In this document: positions 1,924 to 34,836 of the stretch, piece after piece
How the letters are laid out: each line of letters begins with the position of its first letter
Numbering within the stretch: the first letter of the stretch is position 1
From: Ignavibacteriaceae bacterium
GTDB lineage: Bacteria; Bacteroidota; Ignavibacteria; Ignavibacteriales; Ignavibacteriaceae
Assembly: GCA_014860115.1 (NCBI GenBank)
Contig: JACZKK010000182.1
Span: 1-40,700, forward strand
Length of the DNA: 40,700 nt
Reading direction: 5' to 3'
The notes under the pieces: model-generated
What the model was told of the DNA's origin: nothing
Database searches by the model: none
What the model saw: the letters and a program-made list of their open reading frames with translations, nothing else
Made by a program: the position numbers and the translations under genes

Positions 1924-4062
1924 TTACTTTAATAAAATCATTTTTTTCGTTTCCGAGTATTGACCAGCTCTCAGTTGATAAAAATAAATTCCACTCGGGA
2001 GATTTGCTGCGTTAAATTCTATTTCATATTCTCCAGCTGGTTTTTCTTCGTTAACGAGTGTTGCAATTTCCCTTCCGAGAATGTCGTAAACTTTTAGTGT
2101 AACGAGTATGTCACTCTGAGCCTGTCGAAGAGTGACAGAAGGAATTGTATATTTTATTTTTGTAACCGGGTTAAACGGGTTGGGGTAGTTATTTGAAAGA
2201 CTGTAATTCAAAGTAGTATAAAAATTTATTTCGGTTTCAATTGACGAAGTTTCATCATTATAATATTTTAAGATTGTTCCTTCTTGACCTGCGAACCATC
2301 CTATCTTATTGTCAATGAATTGGACTGATCTAATCCCATAGGATGAAGGATGCCAATAGCTCTCCCAACTTTGTCCCCCATTTGTAGTTTTTAATGATGT
2401 AGGGACTAACCAAACATTGTTTTCATCGGAAATCCAATAATCAGTTATAGATATTGCTTCATTTAATTGAACTTGCCAGGTATATCCTCCATCAGTTGTT
2501 TGCATAAGAGTTGAACCATTATCATTGATTCCCCAACCTTCATTTTCATTCAAAAAGAAAATTTTACGTATAGTTATTCCTGGTAGAATTTGCTCCCAAC
2601 TATTACCTCCATCTGAGGTTTTATAAATTATCCCACCATGTTGAGTGGCCCATCCTGTTGTAGAATTAAGAAAAAATATGTCCCAGATCATATTGTTAGT
2701 ATTACACACCAAACTCCAATTCCATCCTCCATCTGTTGTTCGCCAAATCCCAGCACAGTCTGTAAAACCGATTTGCCTGTTAACGAACTCTAATAGGCCT
2801 AGATGTTCTCCTATACCAAGCGAGGGTGGTTGGTAACTCATCCAAGTTTGACCACCATTTGTGGTTTTTAGAATTAATGGTCCCGGTTGAGTCGGATAAG
2901 GATTATGACGATAACCGCAACCCCAGCCATAAAGGCTATCAATAAAAGTAATTTTATGGACATAATCCGCATATCCGTGCACCCAGGACACAGTCCAAGT
3001 AAATCCACCATCCTGAGTGTACCATAATTCTGGACCTGGTGCTATTATTGTACCTTTCAGACTATCAATGAAGAATGCTGAAGCACTAAATCTAAACCCA
3101 CTAGATTGTGCAACCCAAGTAAATCCTCCATCAATAGTTTTTCTAATTGCACCACTTGAATGTATTAACCACCCCGTCAATGTATCGATGAAGAAAATAT
3201 TATTTATATAAGAACCCAAACCTGAAGCTGTAACCCAATTGTTACCACCATCCGTAGTTTTTAAAATATTTCCTGCTCTATCCGAAATCCATCCTGATGA
3301 ACTGCTAATAAATGTAATTGAAGTGAGGCCAGGATTTACCAGTGGATATTCAAACCAGTTACTTCCACCATCAATTGTTTTGAAAAGTGAGGCAGAATTA
3401 CTAACTGAATTGCCTGCAATCCAACCATTCATACTATCAGCAAAACTAATTGAGAAATACGTTGCCGCTGAATCTAAATTTTGTTTAACCCAGGTCAATC
3501 CTCCGTCGCCAGTATGATAAACTTCTGTTCCTGAATATCCTGTTGCCCATCCTCTTAATGAATTTTGGAAAAAACATGAATAGAATTTTGCTGTCGGATC
3601 TAACATTTGATCATTCCAGGATATTCCTCCATCTGTAGTCTTAGAGATTATACCGAACCCTACAACCCATCCAATGTTTTCAGAAATAAATTTAACATCA
3701 TATAGAATTTTATTAAAAAAATAAATCTGCGACCAGCTTTGACCAGCATCAGAAGTTTTGAATACTCGGCCTTCTTGAGTATTACCATCAAGTCCACTAA
3801 CTGCCCAACCAAAATTTTTATTGATAAATGATATTGACTTAATATTTGCTCTGATGCTGTCAAAATAAATTGCTCTCCATTCCGAACCATCTGTTGTTTT
3901 TACGAATGTTCCTTTATCACCAACCACCCAGCCTGTTGAAGAATCGGTAAAAAAAATCTTTTTCAAGCTGTTCGCTTGTGGTAATGGATTACGCCATTCC
4001 CATTGTGCGGATGAAGTAATTGAAAGTATAAAAACCAGGAGAGATATTTTTAGGGTTCGCAT
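1924..4062 (-). CDS. Secreted YCF48-repeat protein with T9SS C-terminal sorting domain
   Basis: A 712-residue exported protein. The signal peptide MRTLKISLLVFILSITSSAQ is nearly identical to that of the neighbouring paralogue. About twelve YCF48-type repeats follow (KTTDGGxxW, KTTNGGQTW and variants), each paired with a GWxxG strand. The last ~90 residues are a type A T9SS sorting domain: SNNYPNPFNPVTKIKY, VYDILGREIATLVNEE, GIYFYQLRAG and a final KKMILLK. I chose the second ATG (4062) because GGAG lies six bases upstream of it; an in-frame ATG at 4074 would overlap that ribosome site. A 27-base palindromic element is embedded in frame in the sorting domain. It is probably secreted and anchored at the cell surface; the biological role is unknown. 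Confidence 0.85.
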   Translation of the reverse strand: MRTLKISLLVFILSITSSAQWEWRNPLPQANSLKKIFFTDSSTGWVVGDKGTFVKTTDGSEWRAIYFDSIRANIKSISFINKNFGWAVSGLDGNTQEGRVFKTSDAGQSWSQIYFFNKILYDVKFISENIGWVVGFGIISKTTDGGISWNDQMLDPTAKFYSCFFQNSLRGWATGYSGTEVYHTGDGGLTWVKQNLDSAATYFSISFADSMNGWIAGNSVSNSASLFKTIDGGSNWFEYPLVNPGLTSITFISSSSGWISDRAGNILKTTDGGNNWVTASGLGSYINNIFFIDTLTGWLIHSSGAIRKTIDGGFTWVAQSSGFRFSASAFFIDSLKGTIIAPGPELWYTQDGGFTWTVSWVHGYADYVHKITFIDSLYGWGCGYRHNPYPTQPGPLILKTTNGGQTWMSYQPPSLGIGEHLGLLEFVNRQIGFTDCAGIWRTTDGGWNWSLVCNTNNMIWDIFFLNSTTGWATQHGGIIYKTSDGGNSWEQILPGITIRKIFFLNENEGWGINDNGSTLMQTTDGGYTWQVQLNEAISITDYWISDENNVWLVPTSLKTTNGGQSWESYWHPSSYGIRSVQFIDNKIGWFAGQEGTILKYYNDETSSIETEINFYTTLNYSLSNNYPNPFNPVTKIKYTIPSVTLRQAQSDILVTLKVYDILGREIATLVNEEKPAGEYEIEFNAANLPSGIYFYQLRAGQYSETKKMILLK
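2110..2136. repeat. 27-bp palindromic element inserted in frame within the T9SS domain coding sequence
   Basis: Perfect 8-base arms GTCACTCT and AGAGTGAC enclose the 11-base centre GAGCCTGTCGA. The element is exactly nine codons long and is read as VTLRQAQSD on the coding (minus) strand. It interrupts the usual TIP-x-VTLKVYDILG run of the sorting domain, and VTL appears on both sides of it. Palindromes of this kind are familiar as dispersed repeats in many genomes; its copy number here cannot be judged from this window. Confidence 0.7.
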
Positions 4063-4133
4063 TTTACGCTCCATTAAAAATTAATTTCATAAGAAACTTA
4101 TAAAATTAATTTGAGAAAGGCGAGCGGGGATTT

Positions 4134-10341: not shown

Positions 10342-10937
10342 TAAATATTTTCTTCTTTATTATCAGGTTTATCCTGTTTCGGCTCAGGAGGTTTATTCGC
10401 TTGTGCAGCAGCTTTTTTTGCTGCAGCAATTTTTTCAGCTTCTTTCTTTGCCTGCATCTCTTCAAAGTTTTTCTTCTTCTGAATTCTTTCTGCGGGAAGA
10501 AGAGTTACGAAATCAAAAACCAGATCCTCTCTCTTGAATTCAGAAAATTCATAAACATCAGTCATATAAATACATTCAGTCGGGCAGGGGAATACACATA
10601 ATTGGCAATAACAGCATTTAGCAAAATCAATGTTAAATGTAGTTACCCAAAGAGCTTTCTTTTTACCGTTAGATGTTGTTCCGAGATCTTCCCCAGGAAT
10701 TGATTTTACGGTTTCAATCTCAATACAGTTAACAGGACAAGCTCTGGCACATTGATCACATCCAATGCAATCATCCATATTAACATAAAGTCTGTTTCTT
10801 TCTCTTTCAGGCATCTGTGGTTTTACTGATGGATATTGAATTGTAACAGCAGGCACGAATAAATGCTTGAATGTTACTTTCATTCCAATTAGAATGGTGT
10901 ATAAACCTTGCCAGAAATTGTAAATATAATCTCTCAT
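10341..10937 (-). CDS. nuoI: NADH-quinone oxidoreductase subunit I (2x[4Fe-4S] ferredoxin-like)
   Basis: A 198-residue peripheral-arm subunit carrying clusters N6a and N6b. The two CxxCxxCxxxCP motifs are at C57-C60-C63-C67 and C108-C111-C114-C118. It passes electrons to NuoB. After about residue 152 there is a ~45-residue Lys/Ala/Glu-rich tail (KKEAEKIAAAKKAAAQANK, then a Pro/Lys/Asp stretch) beyond the conserved core. With no nuoEFG in the operon, NuoI is where an alternative donor such as ferredoxin would be expected to dock; that is inference from related 11-subunit complexes. Confidence 0.95.
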   Translation of the reverse strand: MRDYIYNFWQGLYTILIGMKVTFKHLFVPAVTIQYPSVKPQMPERERNRLYVNMDDCIGCDQCARACPVNCIEIETVKSIPGEDLGTTSNGKKKALWVTTFNIDFAKCCYCQLCVFPCPTECIYMTDVYEFSEFKREDLVFDFVTLLPAERIQKKKNFEEMQAKKEAEKIAAAKKAAAQANKPPEPKQDKPDNKEENI

Positions 10938-14734: not shown

Positions 14735-14824
14735 TACAAGTGAATACTTTTAGAATATTTAAGTATTTTTAAACCTGATCAATTCAATTTAATTAAGAGT
14801 GCTTCAAAGCGTAAAAAAGATATA

Positions 14825-15664
14825 ATGGATTTAGTAAAAGTTTACCTCATTCAGAGTATTACCACTGCAGCTAATAACCTTCGGCTCAATGCACAGCAAA
14901 TTGAAGTTGTCGGTTTATTACGAGAGACGGTAATTAATTCGAATGATCTTGGTGCTGAGCTTCTCCTGATGAAGAAAACAACAGAGCTCTCAAAGTTAGC
15001 TATAAGGTTAAGTGAAATTTATTCTTTCTTAACGCAGGGTAAAGTTGACTTTGTAAAAATATCAGAGCAGTTCAGGGAGCATAGCAGGTATTTAATAAGA
15101 GATTTAAATCAGTTCCTGGAAAACGTCAGTCCAAAAATCTATAAGGATGCGTTCAATAAAATTAATAATGGTCACACAACTGCGATAGATGTTGAATTAG
15201 TTGATCGTAGTAATCTTGCTGGCGAAATTATGAATGTGAATGTTTCGAAAAGTCAGGAAAATTTAATTGTAGAAAAAAGGGTATCTCCTTACTCATCAAT
15301 AGATTTTGAGAAAAAAATTCTCCGTCCAATAAAATCTTTGGATGATCTTTTAAAGAAAATACCATCCGGTGAAGTGACAGAGAATGAGCTAAAAGAATAT
15401 TCTGAAATAATGAAAGAGCATGCCTCACTTTCATCTTTAAATGGATTTCAGGTTATTTCTAAAATGCACGATATTATAGCATCTGCATTGTATGCAATAA
15501 AAAATGATAAATTATTAGTTGATAAGACAGTAATCGAATCACTTCGAGCTTGTTTAATTGTGATAGTTGCAGTCGTTAAAAGAAAAGAAGTTGATATTAC
15601 TGGCTATCTGAACAGAGCTGAGGAATTCGGTAACAAATACTTCAAACAAAAAAGTCAGGTATAG
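14825..15664 (+). CDS. Uncharacterised all-helical protein, faint Hpt-like C-terminal half
   Basis: A 279-residue soluble protein with no signal peptide or membrane segment. It is predicted mostly helical, with two helical halves (about 1-115 and 165-275) joined by a variable linker. Residues ~205-262 (SLNGFQVISKMHDIIASAL, then a KNDKLLVDKTVIESLR stretch) resemble the later helices of CheA-type histidine phosphotransfer domains. However, the His-containing LHxxKG motif is absent, so phosphotransfer is not supported. It ends one base before the mannose-1-phosphate guanylyltransferase and diverges from nuoA. I do not recognise the family; a scaffold or regulatory role is only a guess. Confidence 0.75.
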   Translation: MDLVKVYLIQSITTAANNLRLNAQQIEVVGLLRETVINSNDLGAELLLMKKTTELSKLAIRLSEIYSFLTQGKVDFVKISEQFREHSRYLIRDLNQFLENVSPKIYKDAFNKINNGHTTAIDVELVDRSNLAGEIMNVNVSKSQENLIVEKRVSPYSSIDFEKKILRPIKSLDDLLKKIPSGEVTENELKEYSEIMKEHASLSSLNGFQVISKMHDIIASALYAIKNDKLLVDKTVIESLRACLIVIVAVVKRKEVDITGYLNRAEEFGNKYFKQKSQV

Positions 15665-16742: not shown

Positions 16743-17390
16743 ATGAAAAAGGTAATTACTGAGCGAGATATTTTAAAACTTGAGAAACAGGGGATAAAGG
16801 TTTTATTAAAAACAAAAGATACAATTATCACACCGCTAGCTTTGGACCGAATTCGCTCATCAAAATTTACGATTGTGGAAAAAGAAAATTCTCAATCGGA
16901 ATCCAGTGCCAACTTAAATAACAACATTGAAGCTGCCGGCAGAAAAATAATTATTGGCGGTGATCATACAGGATTCAGACTAAAAAATACACTGATTAAA
17001 TATTTAGTTGAAAAAGAATTTTATGTAACTGATGCCGGAACATTTGATGAAAATTCTTGTGACTATCCTGACTATGCTAAGATTGTAGCAAAATGCGTTT
17101 CTGGAGGAGATATTGATTTTGGGATTTTGATAGATGCAACAGGAATTCCTTCTGCGATTGCTGCAAACAAAGTAAAAGGAATCCGAGCAGCGACATGTTA
17201 CGATATTTTTAGTGCCAGAAGCTCCCGTGCTCACAATAATGCAAATGTTTTAGTAGTTGGAGCAAAAGCATTGGGTGAAGAGACAATTAAGCTGATTGTT
17301 GATGAGTGGTTGTCAACTCATTTTGAAGGTGGAAGGCATAAGAAAAGGTTGGATAAAATAAGTGAACTTGAAAATGAAAAAGATGATTGA
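16743..17390 (+). CDS. RpiB/LacA-family sugar-phosphate isomerase-like protein with N-terminal extension and Cys-to-Asp active site
   Basis: 215 residues, against about 145-150 for normal ribose-5-phosphate isomerase B. Residues ~68-210 are an RpiB domain: IIIGGDHTGFRLK (D74, H75), the YPDYA segment, IAANKVKGIRAATC, SRAHNNANVLVVGAKALG (H164) and EGGRHKKRL. Where RpiB has the catalytic Cys in ILICGTGIGxSIAANK, this protein reads ILIDATGIPSAIAANK, giving Asp131. Residues 1-48 (ITERDILKLEKQGIKV, then IITPLALDRIRSSKF) resemble short N-terminal modules with an LTPLARD-like motif seen on enzymes linked to bacterial microcompartments. RpiB interconverts ribose-5- and ribulose-5-phosphate; activity here is doubtful or altered. 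Function not assigned. Confidence 0.85.
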   Translation: MKKVITERDILKLEKQGIKVLLKTKDTIITPLALDRIRSSKFTIVEKENSQSESSANLNNNIEAAGRKIIIGGDHTGFRLKNTLIKYLVEKEFYVTDAGTFDENSCDYPDYAKIVAKCVSGGDIDFGILIDATGIPSAIAANKVKGIRAATCYDIFSARSSRAHNNANVLVVGAKALGEETIKLIVDEWLSTHFEGGRHKKRLDKISELENEKDD

Positions 17391-29303: not shown

Positions 29304-30758
29304 GTGCATTATTCTAAAAAATACATCACAGCAGTTGTTTCATTTTTTTTGATTTTAATCTCACCTTGTGTCAGCCTGATATCAAAAGTCACTCTATCGG
29401 ATACTTCAGATTATGGAAAGGTATTTGTGACGAGATGGGCAGAAGACAGTAAGTCCGCATTTTCTTTTTCATTTGATGATGGATTCAAAGCACAGTATGA
29501 TAATGTTTACCCAATACTCCAGGAATACGAATTTAATGCAACATATTTTTTACTTCCACCATTTTTAACTGAACAATTACCGGGCATCTGGAGATACGGT
29601 ACCTGGCCTATGTTTCTTGAAATGCATTCTGAGGATTTTGAGTTAAGTTCTCATTCGCTAAATCATCCGCATTTATTACAACTGCCGATTGGCGATACAC
29701 TTACACAAAATACAATTCATTATGAATTATATCATTCTAAAAAAATGATAGAAGCTCGTACTAATTATGAAAAGTGCATCACTTTTGCTTACCCTTATGC
29801 TGAACACAATGCTATGCTGGATTCTCTTGCAAGTTTATATTATGAATCATCGAGGGCTATTGGCATTTCACCAAATCATTATAGTTTATCTGGTCTGGAA
29901 TGGCATTCATTAAAATCATTTGAAGTGATATTTAGCGAGCCAAGAATTGTGTTTGAGGATGATCTTGACGAGCTATATAATTTTATGAATTGGATTGATA
30001 ATTCGGTTTCAAATGGGACATGGGGAATTCAATTAGCACACGAAGTCGTACCATTTGCTCAACTCGGTGATTTGATAACTCAAGGTGCGTATAATCCCAT
30101 CAGCAACGAATGGCTAATTTTACTTTGTGAGTGGTTAGCAGAAAAAAGTTACGATAACTTAATCTGGATCGAATCAATTGGAAATATTACTAGATATATA
30201 AAAGAACGAGATGCACACTCGTATCAGGTTTTATCTCAGTCTAATTCACTTATTGAAATTTTATTAACTGATAACCTTCCTGATAATATTTATAATTATC
30301 CGTTAACTGCATATATCTCAATACCTGAAACCTGGGAAAAAGTTTTACTTATCCAGGGAAACAACTCAAAAGTTTATAAAACTTTTAGTATGGATACAAT
30401 GCAGGTGTTACTTGCACAAATCATACCTGATAACGGAATAATTCAACTTTTTGATTACACTTCTACTTTTGTTGAAGTTGATGAAAAGCAGCCGGCAGAT
30501 TTTATTCTTAATCAGAACTATCCAAATCCATTCAACCCATCGACAACGATAAGCTATGAAATAAAGAACTCCGGATACGTATTACTTGACTTATATGATA
30601 TTCTCGGAAATAAAATAAGTGTGTTGACTGCTGGAGAGAAATCAGCAGGTACGCATAGTGTTCTTTTCGATGCTGGTTATTTGCCAAGCGGTGTATATAC
30701 CTATGTTTTTAGTTTTGAAGGTAAGTATCAATCAAAAAAACTAATGCTGATTAAATAA
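29304..30758 (+). CDS. T9SS-secreted polysaccharide deacetylase-family protein
   Basis: 484 residues starting at GTG, with a hydrophobic N-terminal segment (YITAVVSFFLILISPCVSLI). The NodB-type core has SFSFDDG (D58, D59) and SSHSLNHPHL (H117, H121), giving the Asp-His-His metal triad. The third motif, FAYPYAEHN, has lost the usual Arg. Family members remove acetyl groups from peptidoglycan, chitin or exopolysaccharide. The last ~85 residues are a T9SS sorting domain: LNQNYPNPFNPSTTISYEI, DLYDILGNKISVL, GVYTYVF and KKLMLIK. It should therefore be exported to the cell surface. It is flanked by beta-barrel genes. Confidence 0.85.
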   Translation: MHYSKKYITAVVSFFLILISPCVSLISKVTLSDTSDYGKVFVTRWAEDSKSAFSFSFDDGFKAQYDNVYPILQEYEFNATYFLLPPFLTEQLPGIWRYGTWPMFLEMHSEDFELSSHSLNHPHLLQLPIGDTLTQNTIHYELYHSKKMIEARTNYEKCITFAYPYAEHNAMLDSLASLYYESSRAIGISPNHYSLSGLEWHSLKSFEVIFSEPRIVFEDDLDELYNFMNWIDNSVSNGTWGIQLAHEVVPFAQLGDLITQGAYNPISNEWLILLCEWLAEKSYDNLIWIESIGNITRYIKERDAHSYQVLSQSNSLIEILLTDNLPDNIYNYPLTAYISIPETWEKVLLIQGNNSKVYKTFSMDTMQVLLAQIIPDNGIIQLFDYTSTFVEVDEKQPADFILNQNYPNPFNPSTTISYEIKNSGYVLLDLYDILGNKISVLTAGEKSAGTHSVLFDAGYLPSGVYTYVFSFEGKYQSKKLMLIK

Positions 30759-32845: not shown

Positions 32846-34561
32846 CTATTTCAAGAGCGTCATTTTCTTAGTTTCAATAAAATTACCAACCTGTAATCGG
32901 TAAAAATATATTCCGCTTGTCAGGTCAGCGGCGTTAAACTGAGCCTCATATCTACCTGCAGGTCTTTCTTCATTAACTAATGTTGCGACTTCATTTCCGA
33001 GAACATCATAAATTTTTAAAGATTGCCAACCGTTCACCGGTGACTGCCAACTGATCGATGTTACCGGATTAAAAGGATTTGGATAATTCTGGTAAAGGAT
33101 AAATTCTTCCGGGGAAATACCATCGTCATGAACAAAAACGACTTCTAGTACTTCAATGTAGCAAGATTTTACCAGAGTATCACTTCCTAATGCATTTGTT
33201 GCAATTAAAGATACTTCATAAATCCCGGGAGAGTTATAAAATATATTCTCTGGATTTTGATCTGTTGATGATGATGGTATTCCTCCGGGAAAACTCCATT
33301 GCCAGGCTGTCGGCTGAAAGGATGATTGGTCAGAAAAAGAAACATCAGATCCATTAAAAATTTGAGTTGAATCAGCTTTGAAATCAGCAACCGGTTTGAA
33401 AGGTTTATTTGGCTTATATGCTTTTATATTGAATCCGCCTCCCGTTATAACAAGAGTTCCATCTTTACCAAGTGCCGCTCCGCAGTAAGTTAAGTTTGGA
33501 ACTCCAAGCTCCCAGATTACAGTTTGTAAATCGGGGCTAAAGCAAAACATTTTATTGGAATTGTTATTTACAAAAACATTACCTTCGCCATCAACTGAAA
33601 TTGTTGAATAAAAAGAAGCATCAACTGATATAGAAGATTTATTCAAAACAGTTCCATCTTGAGAGTTGAGAAGTTTTACTGTGTCATTGTCGACTATATA
33701 TAAATTGCCATTGGCTGCAGAACCAAAATAACCGGGCATTTCTGTAGCGGTTGGTGTGTATTCCCATTTAATTCGAAGCTCTGTGCCTGTATCTTCAAAT
33801 GCATACAATTTTCCACCATCACGTTTCATATAAATCGTTCCATCAATTCCTATTGTAATTGGCCATTCCTGATCACCATCACCTGGAAGACTGCCTGTCT
33901 CATATTTAAATTGACCTGTTTCTATATCAAGAGCAAATAACGTTTTTGGAGTATTGATTGCACCTTTGTAATGATAGAAAGTAGTGCTGCTTGCTGCATA
34001 ACCAGCATTTGGTCCAACCGGAACGATGTAATCATAAAACCAAATTGTTTGACCAGTATTTTTATCAAGTCTTTTTCCTCTTACTATCGGATCACCATTA
34101 CAAGCAAATAAAATTCCAGAGTTCCCTCCAAACATATATTCATTTACAGCCCACTTAACAGAACCGTCAATGGGAGAAAGAGCATAAAGAGTATCATTCG
34201 AATAATCGTGGGCGTAAACAGCATCCTCATTGAAGCCAACCGTATACATTATCGAAGTTGGGTAAACCATTTTTTCCCAGATTATGCTTCCATCAATAAG
34301 ACTGCGGTATTCTAATTTGGATGTGTATGGACTAAATACAGCTCGTGCAGTAACAAATTTATCACCGAAAGTAAATACTGAATTACCTATGCTTGTCTGG
34401 CTTGAACTAACCGTCCAGGCAGGAGTAATTACGCTATCAGGTCCAATTATTTTGCTTAGGCCATTCCTTTGATTGCTTCCTCCGATTGTTGGCCAATTTT
34501 GTGTATATGATGAAATGCTTGTTAAAATAGTGATGATGAAAATAAGTGACAGTTTTTGCAT
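32846..34561 (-). CDS. Secreted PQQ-propeller / PKD protein with T9SS sorting domain
   Basis: 571 residues from the ATG at 34561, which starts directly at a signal peptide (MQKLSLIFIITILTSISSYTQ); the open frame extends upstream to 34795, but that part has no signal sequence. Domains in order: a PQQ-like beta-propeller (~25-380) with repeats such as LYALSPIDGSVKW and LFALDIETGQFKY; a PKD domain (~390-470) with WQWSFPGGIPSS and YNSPGIYEVSLIATNALG; a T9SS domain with LYQNYPNPFNPVTSISW, IYDVLGNEVATLVNEE, GIYFYRLQVG and KKMTLLK. It is likely a cell-surface binding or adhesion protein. No catalytic residues are apparent. Confidence 0.87.
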   Translation of the reverse strand: MQKLSLIFIITILTSISSYTQNWPTIGGSNQRNGLSKIIGPDSVITPAWTVSSSQTSIGNSVFTFGDKFVTARAVFSPYTSKLEYRSLIDGSIIWEKMVYPTSIMYTVGFNEDAVYAHDYSNDTLYALSPIDGSVKWAVNEYMFGGNSGILFACNGDPIVRGKRLDKNTGQTIWFYDYIVPVGPNAGYAASSTTFYHYKGAINTPKTLFALDIETGQFKYETGSLPGDGDQEWPITIGIDGTIYMKRDGGKLYAFEDTGTELRIKWEYTPTATEMPGYFGSAANGNLYIVDNDTVKLLNSQDGTVLNKSSISVDASFYSTISVDGEGNVFVNNNSNKMFCFSPDLQTVIWELGVPNLTYCGAALGKDGTLVITGGGFNIKAYKPNKPFKPVADFKADSTQIFNGSDVSFSDQSSFQPTAWQWSFPGGIPSSSTDQNPENIFYNSPGIYEVSLIATNALGSDTLVKSCYIEVLEVVFVHDDGISPEEFILYQNYPNPFNPVTSISWQSPVNGWQSLKIYDVLGNEVATLVNEERPAGRYEAQFNAADLTSGIYFYRLQVGNFIETKKMTLLK

Positions 34562-34836
34562 GATTTTACCTATAAAATAACTAACATTAAAAATAATGTT
34601 TTCATAAATGAATAAGTTTTTATTTTGAAAATTTTGATACGAACTTATTGTTAAAATATATAATGAGATTGAAAAAGGGAAGTGATGATTTGGTAATGCT
34701 TCAAATTGTAATTGATTACCGTCTATCAATTTTTCTGGATTTACCAATTTTTTCTCTTGGCTCAAGATGAGTAATGGGTTAAATTCGCAAAACAAAATTC
34801 AAAACGAATATTCAAAAACATAATCAGGAGTCAAAT

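Follow-up and report, generated by a model that had tools for sequence, protein, structure and literature searches.

An RpiB-like protein with aspartate in place of the catalytic cysteine as a candidate cargo of a dispersed-gene bacterial microcompartment in Ignavibacteria

We analyzed a window of 40,700 nucleotides (the whole stretch, positions 1 to 40,700 of contig JACZKK010000182.1 of an Ignavibacteriaceae bacterium) and found an intact 215-codon open reading frame for an RpiB-like protein. From its sequence and those of its relatives, this protein is probably cargo of a bacterial microcompartment (BMC) that houses the pathway of deoxyribose-phosphate aldolase (DERA), and its active site probably differs from those of known ribose-5-phosphate isomerases. 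The features of the gene are as follows.

16743 to 17390, plus strand: candidate RpiB-like BMC cargo protein, 215 amino acids (intact open reading frame, family matches)
16746 to 16880, plus strand: N-terminal BMC module, residues 2 to 46 (NCBIfam matches, AlphaFold)
16884 to 16940, plus strand: flexible linker, residues 48 to 66 (pLDDT below 50 at residues 52 to 55 and 57 to 59)
16941 to 17378, plus strand: RpiB/LacAB domain, residues 67 to 212 (Pfam/NCBIfam, fold match)
17133 to 17135, plus strand: codon of Asp131, at the position of the catalytic Cys (E. coli Cys65/66; alignment)
17151 to 17153, plus strand: codon of Ser137, E. coli position 72 (alignment)
17232 to 17234, plus strand: codon of His164, the ring-opening His (E. 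coli His99), kept (alignment)

The protein belongs to the RpiB/LacAB family by both score and fold. Pfam LacAB_rpiB matches residues 69 to 206 (E = 1e-51), the cut-off of the NCBIfam equivalog TIGR01120 (rpiB) is exceeded with 170 bits, and the family assignment from both databases spans residues 68 to 211. The predicted fold of this domain resembles 3he8 and E. coli RpiB (2vvr), with TM scores of 0.96 to 0.97 by target length. AlphaFold places a compact N-terminal unit (beta-alpha-beta-beta-alpha-beta) ahead of a disordered linker and the RpiB domain. The unit is predicted with a pLDDT of 93 to 97 over residues 1 to 40 in the full model and 85 when the module is modeled alone. That annotation described the sequence correctly in every detail. 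The RpiB landmarks it listed are kept in the alignment (Asp74-His75, His164, and EGGRH at residues 195 to 199), and the window protein retains D74, H75, H164, R198, H199, and R202. As it stated, Asp131 replaces the catalytic Cys in a gap-free alignment to E. coli and Thermotoga RpiB, and the CGTGIG loop is changed (D131-A-T-G-I-P136-S137); CGTGVGIS of the E. coli and T. maritima proteins aligns here with DATGIPSA.

The gene is part of a housekeeping operon, with no shell genes adjacent, and the order orf279-GMP-RpiB-PyrK-PyrD-FolC-Rho is common to two families. In both families a 279-residue protein (window 14825-15664), which has no match in Pfam or NCBIfam, is a conserved neighbor of mannose-1-phosphate guanylyltransferase and the Asp RpiB. 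Proteins encoded at window positions 1924-4074, 29304-30758, and 32846-34795 end in YPNPFNP-type C-terminal domains, which are typical for secreted proteins of the phylum.

In RpiB/LacAB catalysis, Cys is the base that takes the C2 proton, Thr shuttles a proton between O1 and O2, and His mediates ring opening (PMC4783025, PMC3755991). The carboxylate Glu75 of M. tuberculosis RpiB is a known alternative base. The window protein has neither Cys at E. coli position 65/66 nor Glu at the M. tuberculosis Glu75 position, carrying Asp131 and Ser137 instead. Among 147 aligned RpiBs, position 66 (E. coli numbering) is Asp in 125, Cys in 21, and Gly in 1. All 125 Asp proteins have Ser at position 72, which is I, V, or M in the Cys group and which aligns with the Glu of the M. 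tuberculosis-type loop. The changed pocket proposed in the initial annotation is thus real and invariant. A sequencing slip is ruled out because Asp is found in all 53 phylum relatives with the N-terminal module, described below. Position 68 is T or S in all Cys-type RpiBs of the alignment; in the Asp group it is Ala, Val, or Met in 92 proteins and Thr or Ser in 31, with Thr present in the window protein and 30 of the 125. D9, H10, N77, R97, and R137 are conserved in 100% of the Asp proteins, and H99, R133, and H134 in 124 of 125. Judged by alignment, the Asp type has both sites where the RpiB family places its base altered together, and the RpiB domain of the window protein is predicted to represent a third kind of active site, in which Asp131 and Ser137 replace Cys or the M. 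tuberculosis-type Glu. A new substrate, also put forward initially, is plausible for such a pocket.

Orthologs with the same Asp and N terminus, a check suggested by the initial annotation, all come, within the phylum sample, from genomes that encode BMC shell proteins. Our phylum sample comprised 296 genomes, with the Asp form in 53 (52 full-length matches plus genome G239, locus L091) that span 14 families and 42 genera. The N-terminal module is present in all 53 proteins and PF00936 shell genes in all 53 genomes, while the genomes without Asp-RpiB comprise 8 shell-positive (one marginal) and 235 shell-negative ones (Fisher p ~2e-50, a value that overstates the independence of the genomes). 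Twelve non-Asp RpiBs from these genomes (11 Cys and 1 of the M. tuberculosis GGSGNGE type) are without the module. It is very unlikely that the window protein is simply a housekeeping RpiB that underwent a neutral residue swap and has an N-terminal tail of unrelated origin. Its operon, its passing of the TIGR01120 cut-off, and its status as the sole RpiB of its own genome would all suit this reading, but RpiA is also present there, the paired substitutions are invariant, and it is already contradicted by the joint occurrence of module and shell genes across the 53 genomes.

The association extends beyond the phylum. From a profile scan of 84,980 GTDB species genomes, we took the best 80 loci as a sample, with 72 Asp and 8 Cys RpiBs. 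Among these 80 loci, the RpiB is of the Asp form in each of the 38 whose fetched stretch includes shell genes and in all 54 with DERA nearby, and none of the 8 Cys loci has shell genes or DERA nearby. Hosts in this sample include Chloroflexota, Acidobacteriota, Gemmatimonadota, Planctomycetota, Spirochaetota, Atribacterota, and Calditrichota. One Heimdallarchaeota record (L199) holds a BMC locus with shell genes, DERA, a PduS-like gene, and an Asp RpiB. RpiB and DERA form a single open reading frame in L183, L197, and L200; such a fusion was previously noted in Marinimicrobia. In a tree of 147 RpiB domains from which the signature columns had been removed, a single branch (SH-aLRT 89, not starred) separates all 125 Asp proteins from the rest. 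A Bacteroidota/Ignavibacteria set of 62 rows (97*) contains the window protein and is distinct from the groups of the sugar-phosphate-utilising (SPU) BMC loci. The window protein shares with SPU-type RpiBs both the side of the tree and the Asp/Ser signature. All organelle-linked relatives examined have Asp, which suggests a different role for these "ribose-5-phosphate isomerases".

The N-terminal ~66 residues, with ITPLALDRIR at residues 29 to 38, had been likened to BMC modules, and the likeness goes beyond a motif shared by chance. Searched alone, the first 66 residues match the C terminus of TIGR02536 ("eut_hyp"; 1.5e-7), the EutQ N terminus (7.5e-4), and the C terminus of PduM (0.019), and the matches to BMC families span residues 1 to 55 at most. 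The same module in other members scores up to 6e-9 and 1.2e-6 (NCBIfam). The targeting element of the protein thus has a homolog among known BMC modules, and a TIGR02536 search of its own genome finds the module convincingly in the window protein only. A PDB fold search with the module alone returned nothing significant (best E, 0.087), and we claim no structural relative. Residues 1 to 99 of EutQ alone direct GFP into the Eut BMC, and the H1/H2 region within residues 1 to 41 binds the shell (PMC12487888); PduM connects the BMC shell with the core (PMC9132943). From this homology, we infer that the window protein docks at the shell by its N-terminal module. Overall, the module homology, the shell genes, their presence in 53 of 53 genomes with the Asp form, and relatives inside SPU shell loci strongly favor recruitment to a shell.

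The module is not confined to RpiB. It also occurs at the C terminus of an uncharacterised gene adjoining RpiB in some genomes; in L062, L067, L069, and L075 (minus strand), a protein with a C-terminal BMC module, of ~230 to 260 residues in three of the four, adjoins the Asp RpiB. A class II aldolase carries it as well (L133:17692-18516, N-terminal, inside an SPU locus), as do EutQ-like open reading frames of 110 to 150 residues in Chloroflexi SPU loci. The small proteins (L173:15491-15850, L170:15408-15746, L158:14407-14835, L150:15141-15515, and L159:15144-15602), of which those of L173 and L159 have helix-like C-terminal stretches, are candidate EutQ-like linkers of shell and cargo. In several SPU RpiBs, the module is preceded by a helix that looks amphipathic, and others have the helix only. 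Among the best 80 loci of the scan, the module is present in 30 of 34 Asp RpiBs outside shell loci versus 9 of 38 inside, a difference that is only suggestive because the query favored module-bearing forms. A non-catalytic scaffold or linker, whose RpiB fold binds cargo or a metabolite while the module binds the shell as in EutQ, would be in keeping with the EutQ-type module, the small EutQ-like proteins that share it, and the loss of the classical base. We consider it unlikely, since many SPU copies have a simple helix in place of the module, and the conservation over many phyla of Asp, Ser, and nearly all catalytic and phosphate-binding residues would be unexpected for a dead enzyme. Decay into a pseudo-enzyme was dropped as an explanation on account of the same conservation.

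The genome that encodes the window protein, searched in pieces, does have BMC shell genes. Contigs C90, C75, and C116 encode six BMC domains, and C4 and C23 encode three EutN pentamers (PF03319); the contig of the window has none of them. The outcome that would have refuted the initial annotation, an N-terminal module unrelated to BMC proteins in a genome without shell genes, is contradicted on both counts. On C75 and C116, a PduS-like gene of the RnfC family adjoins the BMC-T gene, which is PduT-like. These two contigs (L013 and L014) are near-identical, with the order hemH, PduS-like gene, BMC-T gene, and stem either from duplication or from another strain within the assembly (contamination, 3.56%). 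On L016, also from this genome, ~4 kb separates the pentamer shell gene at 10458-10751 from a gene for a FucA-like class II aldolase at 14770-15426. A contaminating contig was ruled out, as relatives assembled in a single contig (e.g., G294, G124, G188, G030, and G005) have both the gene and shell genes. DERA, RpiB, and shell genes are on separate contigs here and do not form an SPU-type locus. The dispersal of the shell genes over five contigs and the BMC-P triplet are those of FRAG BMCs, and by these two features the BMC of this genome is FRAG-type or FRAG-like.

The same genome encodes partner enzymes with extensions of their own. Its DERA, on C7, has ~70 additional N-terminal residues, with a helix and a GA-R segment that resemble the DERA of SPU loci; this extension can be aligned across 45 genomes, and 44 of these have an Asp RpiB. 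A EutE-type acylating acetaldehyde dehydrogenase exceeds the TIGR02518 cut-off and has an extra C-terminal tail, helix-like at its end. From these terminal extensions, both enzymes are predicted to be encapsulated. PduL was sought in this genome and not found. A DeoC match on C204 was rejected as a DERA, because its sequence resembles a class I fructose-bisphosphate-type aldolase.

We propose that Asp-RpiB is cargo of a BMC whose genes lie at scattered chromosomal sites, anchored at the shell by its N-terminal module, and that it would act there beside DERA and the acylating acetaldehyde dehydrogenase, both with terminal targeting-type extensions. DERA would split 2-deoxyribose-5-phosphate from DNA into glyceraldehyde-3-phosphate and acetaldehyde, the dehydrogenase would convert acetaldehyde to acetyl-CoA and NADH, and NADH could be re-oxidized via the PduS/PduT-like proteins. 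The direction from DNA sugar to acetyl-CoA is presumed from the gene content. A reverse pathway, in which DERA joins acetaldehyde and glyceraldehyde-3-phosphate as an electron sink and Asp-RpiB helps in sugar storage or release, was put forward for BMCs of Atribacteria that contain DERA and RpiB (PMC6281690). It seems improbable here: it leaves the loss of the isomerase base unexplained, and oxidation accommodates the acylating acetaldehyde dehydrogenase and PduS equally well.

For Asp-RpiB itself, the first choice, made tentatively, is that it opens (anomerises) the furanose ring of 2-deoxyribose-5-phosphate and so provides DERA with its open-chain substrate. This sugar has no C2 hydroxyl and is, for that reason, not a substrate for an aldose-ketose isomerase. 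Ring opening is favored because, in the aligned Asp proteins, the ring-opening His, the phosphate-binding residues, and the Asp/His pair are kept and the C2/O2 residues (Cys and usually Thr) are altered, in keeping with a DERA sugar without O2. The retention of Thr68 in some Asp proteins weakens the latter argument.

The main rival is a true aldose-phosphate isomerase in the BMC, for ribose-5-phosphate or a different sugar phosphate, in which Asp131 takes over the role of general base; it is a real possibility. The entire pocket is kept, the SPU homolog has been published under the name ribose-5-phosphate isomerase, and the base of M. tuberculosis RpiB is a carboxylate of the same loop, at the place where the Asp type has Ser. 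Aldose-ketose isomerization, however, cannot serve DERA on a substrate without C2-OH, the Thr shuttle is absent from most Asp proteins, and other RpiBs lose all activity when their Cys is mutated to Ser or Ala. The distribution of isomerases speaks to the same question. Another isomerase is encoded in 49 of the 53 Asp-RpiB genomes (RpiA in 25 and a second RpiB in 24 others, never both), so the Asp form seems not to serve as the cell's ribose-5-phosphate isomerase and, from gene content, to be excluded from canonical isomerase duty. Nine of the 24 second RpiBs were inspected, and 8 are Cys proteins; the ninth, of the M. tuberculosis type, has the GGSGNGE loop and accompanies the Asp form in genome G280 (L089). 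The remaining four genomes (G263, G047, G062, and G082; 150 to 190 contigs each), in which neither RpiA nor a second RpiB was seen, count on the side of the isomerase, and ribulose-5-phosphate could still be a product of some Asp forms.

Ring opening for DERA, if correct, may apply more widely. It is a real, if speculative, possibility that all BMC-linked "RpiB" proteins open 2-deoxyribose-5-phosphate for encapsulated DERA with this third active-site type and are not isomerases, that those of Ignavibacteria are anchored to the shell in the EutQ manner, and that FRAG BMCs are dispersed-gene metabolosomes for DNA sugar. In the openly searchable literature, we found neither the invariant Asp/Ser site, nor the apparent exclusion of the Asp form from isomerase duty, nor the assignment of DERA and Asp-RpiB to dispersed Ignavibacterial BMCs, although a report elsewhere is possible. 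The link between Asp and organelle hints at the role of an unexplained BMC class: Asp-RpiB marks the FRAG-like BMCs of Ignavibacteria and relatives, whose function thereby becomes testable. The window protein also shows a EutQ-like shell-docking module borne by a metabolic enzyme.

Compared with known systems, the RpiBs of E. coli, C. thermocellum, and T. maritima (PDB 1nn4, 2vvr, 3he8, and 1o1x) share the fold, ring-opening His, phosphate-binding Arg, DH, and DYP with the window protein, which differs in Asp for Cys, Ser for I/V/M72, and the added N-terminal module. M. tuberculosis RpiB (Glu75 type; PDB 1usl and 2vvo) is likewise without Cys and has a carboxylate in the loop, but its Glu occupies the Ser position of the window protein, whose Asp occupies the Cys position. 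The EutQ N-terminal region (PMC12487888) and PduM contain a ~45-residue module homologous to that of the window protein; in EutQ it is fused to a cupin acetate-kinase domain and here to RpiB. RpiB was already known from SPU loci (Axen 2014, PMC4207490; Sutter 2021, PMC8217296); the accessible parts of both papers call it ribose-5-phosphate isomerase and make no mention of its Asp. SPU-locus RpiBs and the window protein have in common the side of the tree, the Asp/Ser signature, and a DERA partner, and many have the helix and/or the module, but SPU genes cluster with shell genes, whereas those of the window genome are all dispersed. FRAG BMCs, as described in the accessible part of Sutter 2021 (PMC8217296), have scattered shell genes, a pentamer triplet, Ignavibacteriae among their hosts, and no obvious signature enzyme. 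The window genome matches that description in its dispersed shell genes, three pentamer genes, and lineage, and for the signature enzymes we propose DERA, Asp-RpiB, and acetaldehyde dehydrogenase.
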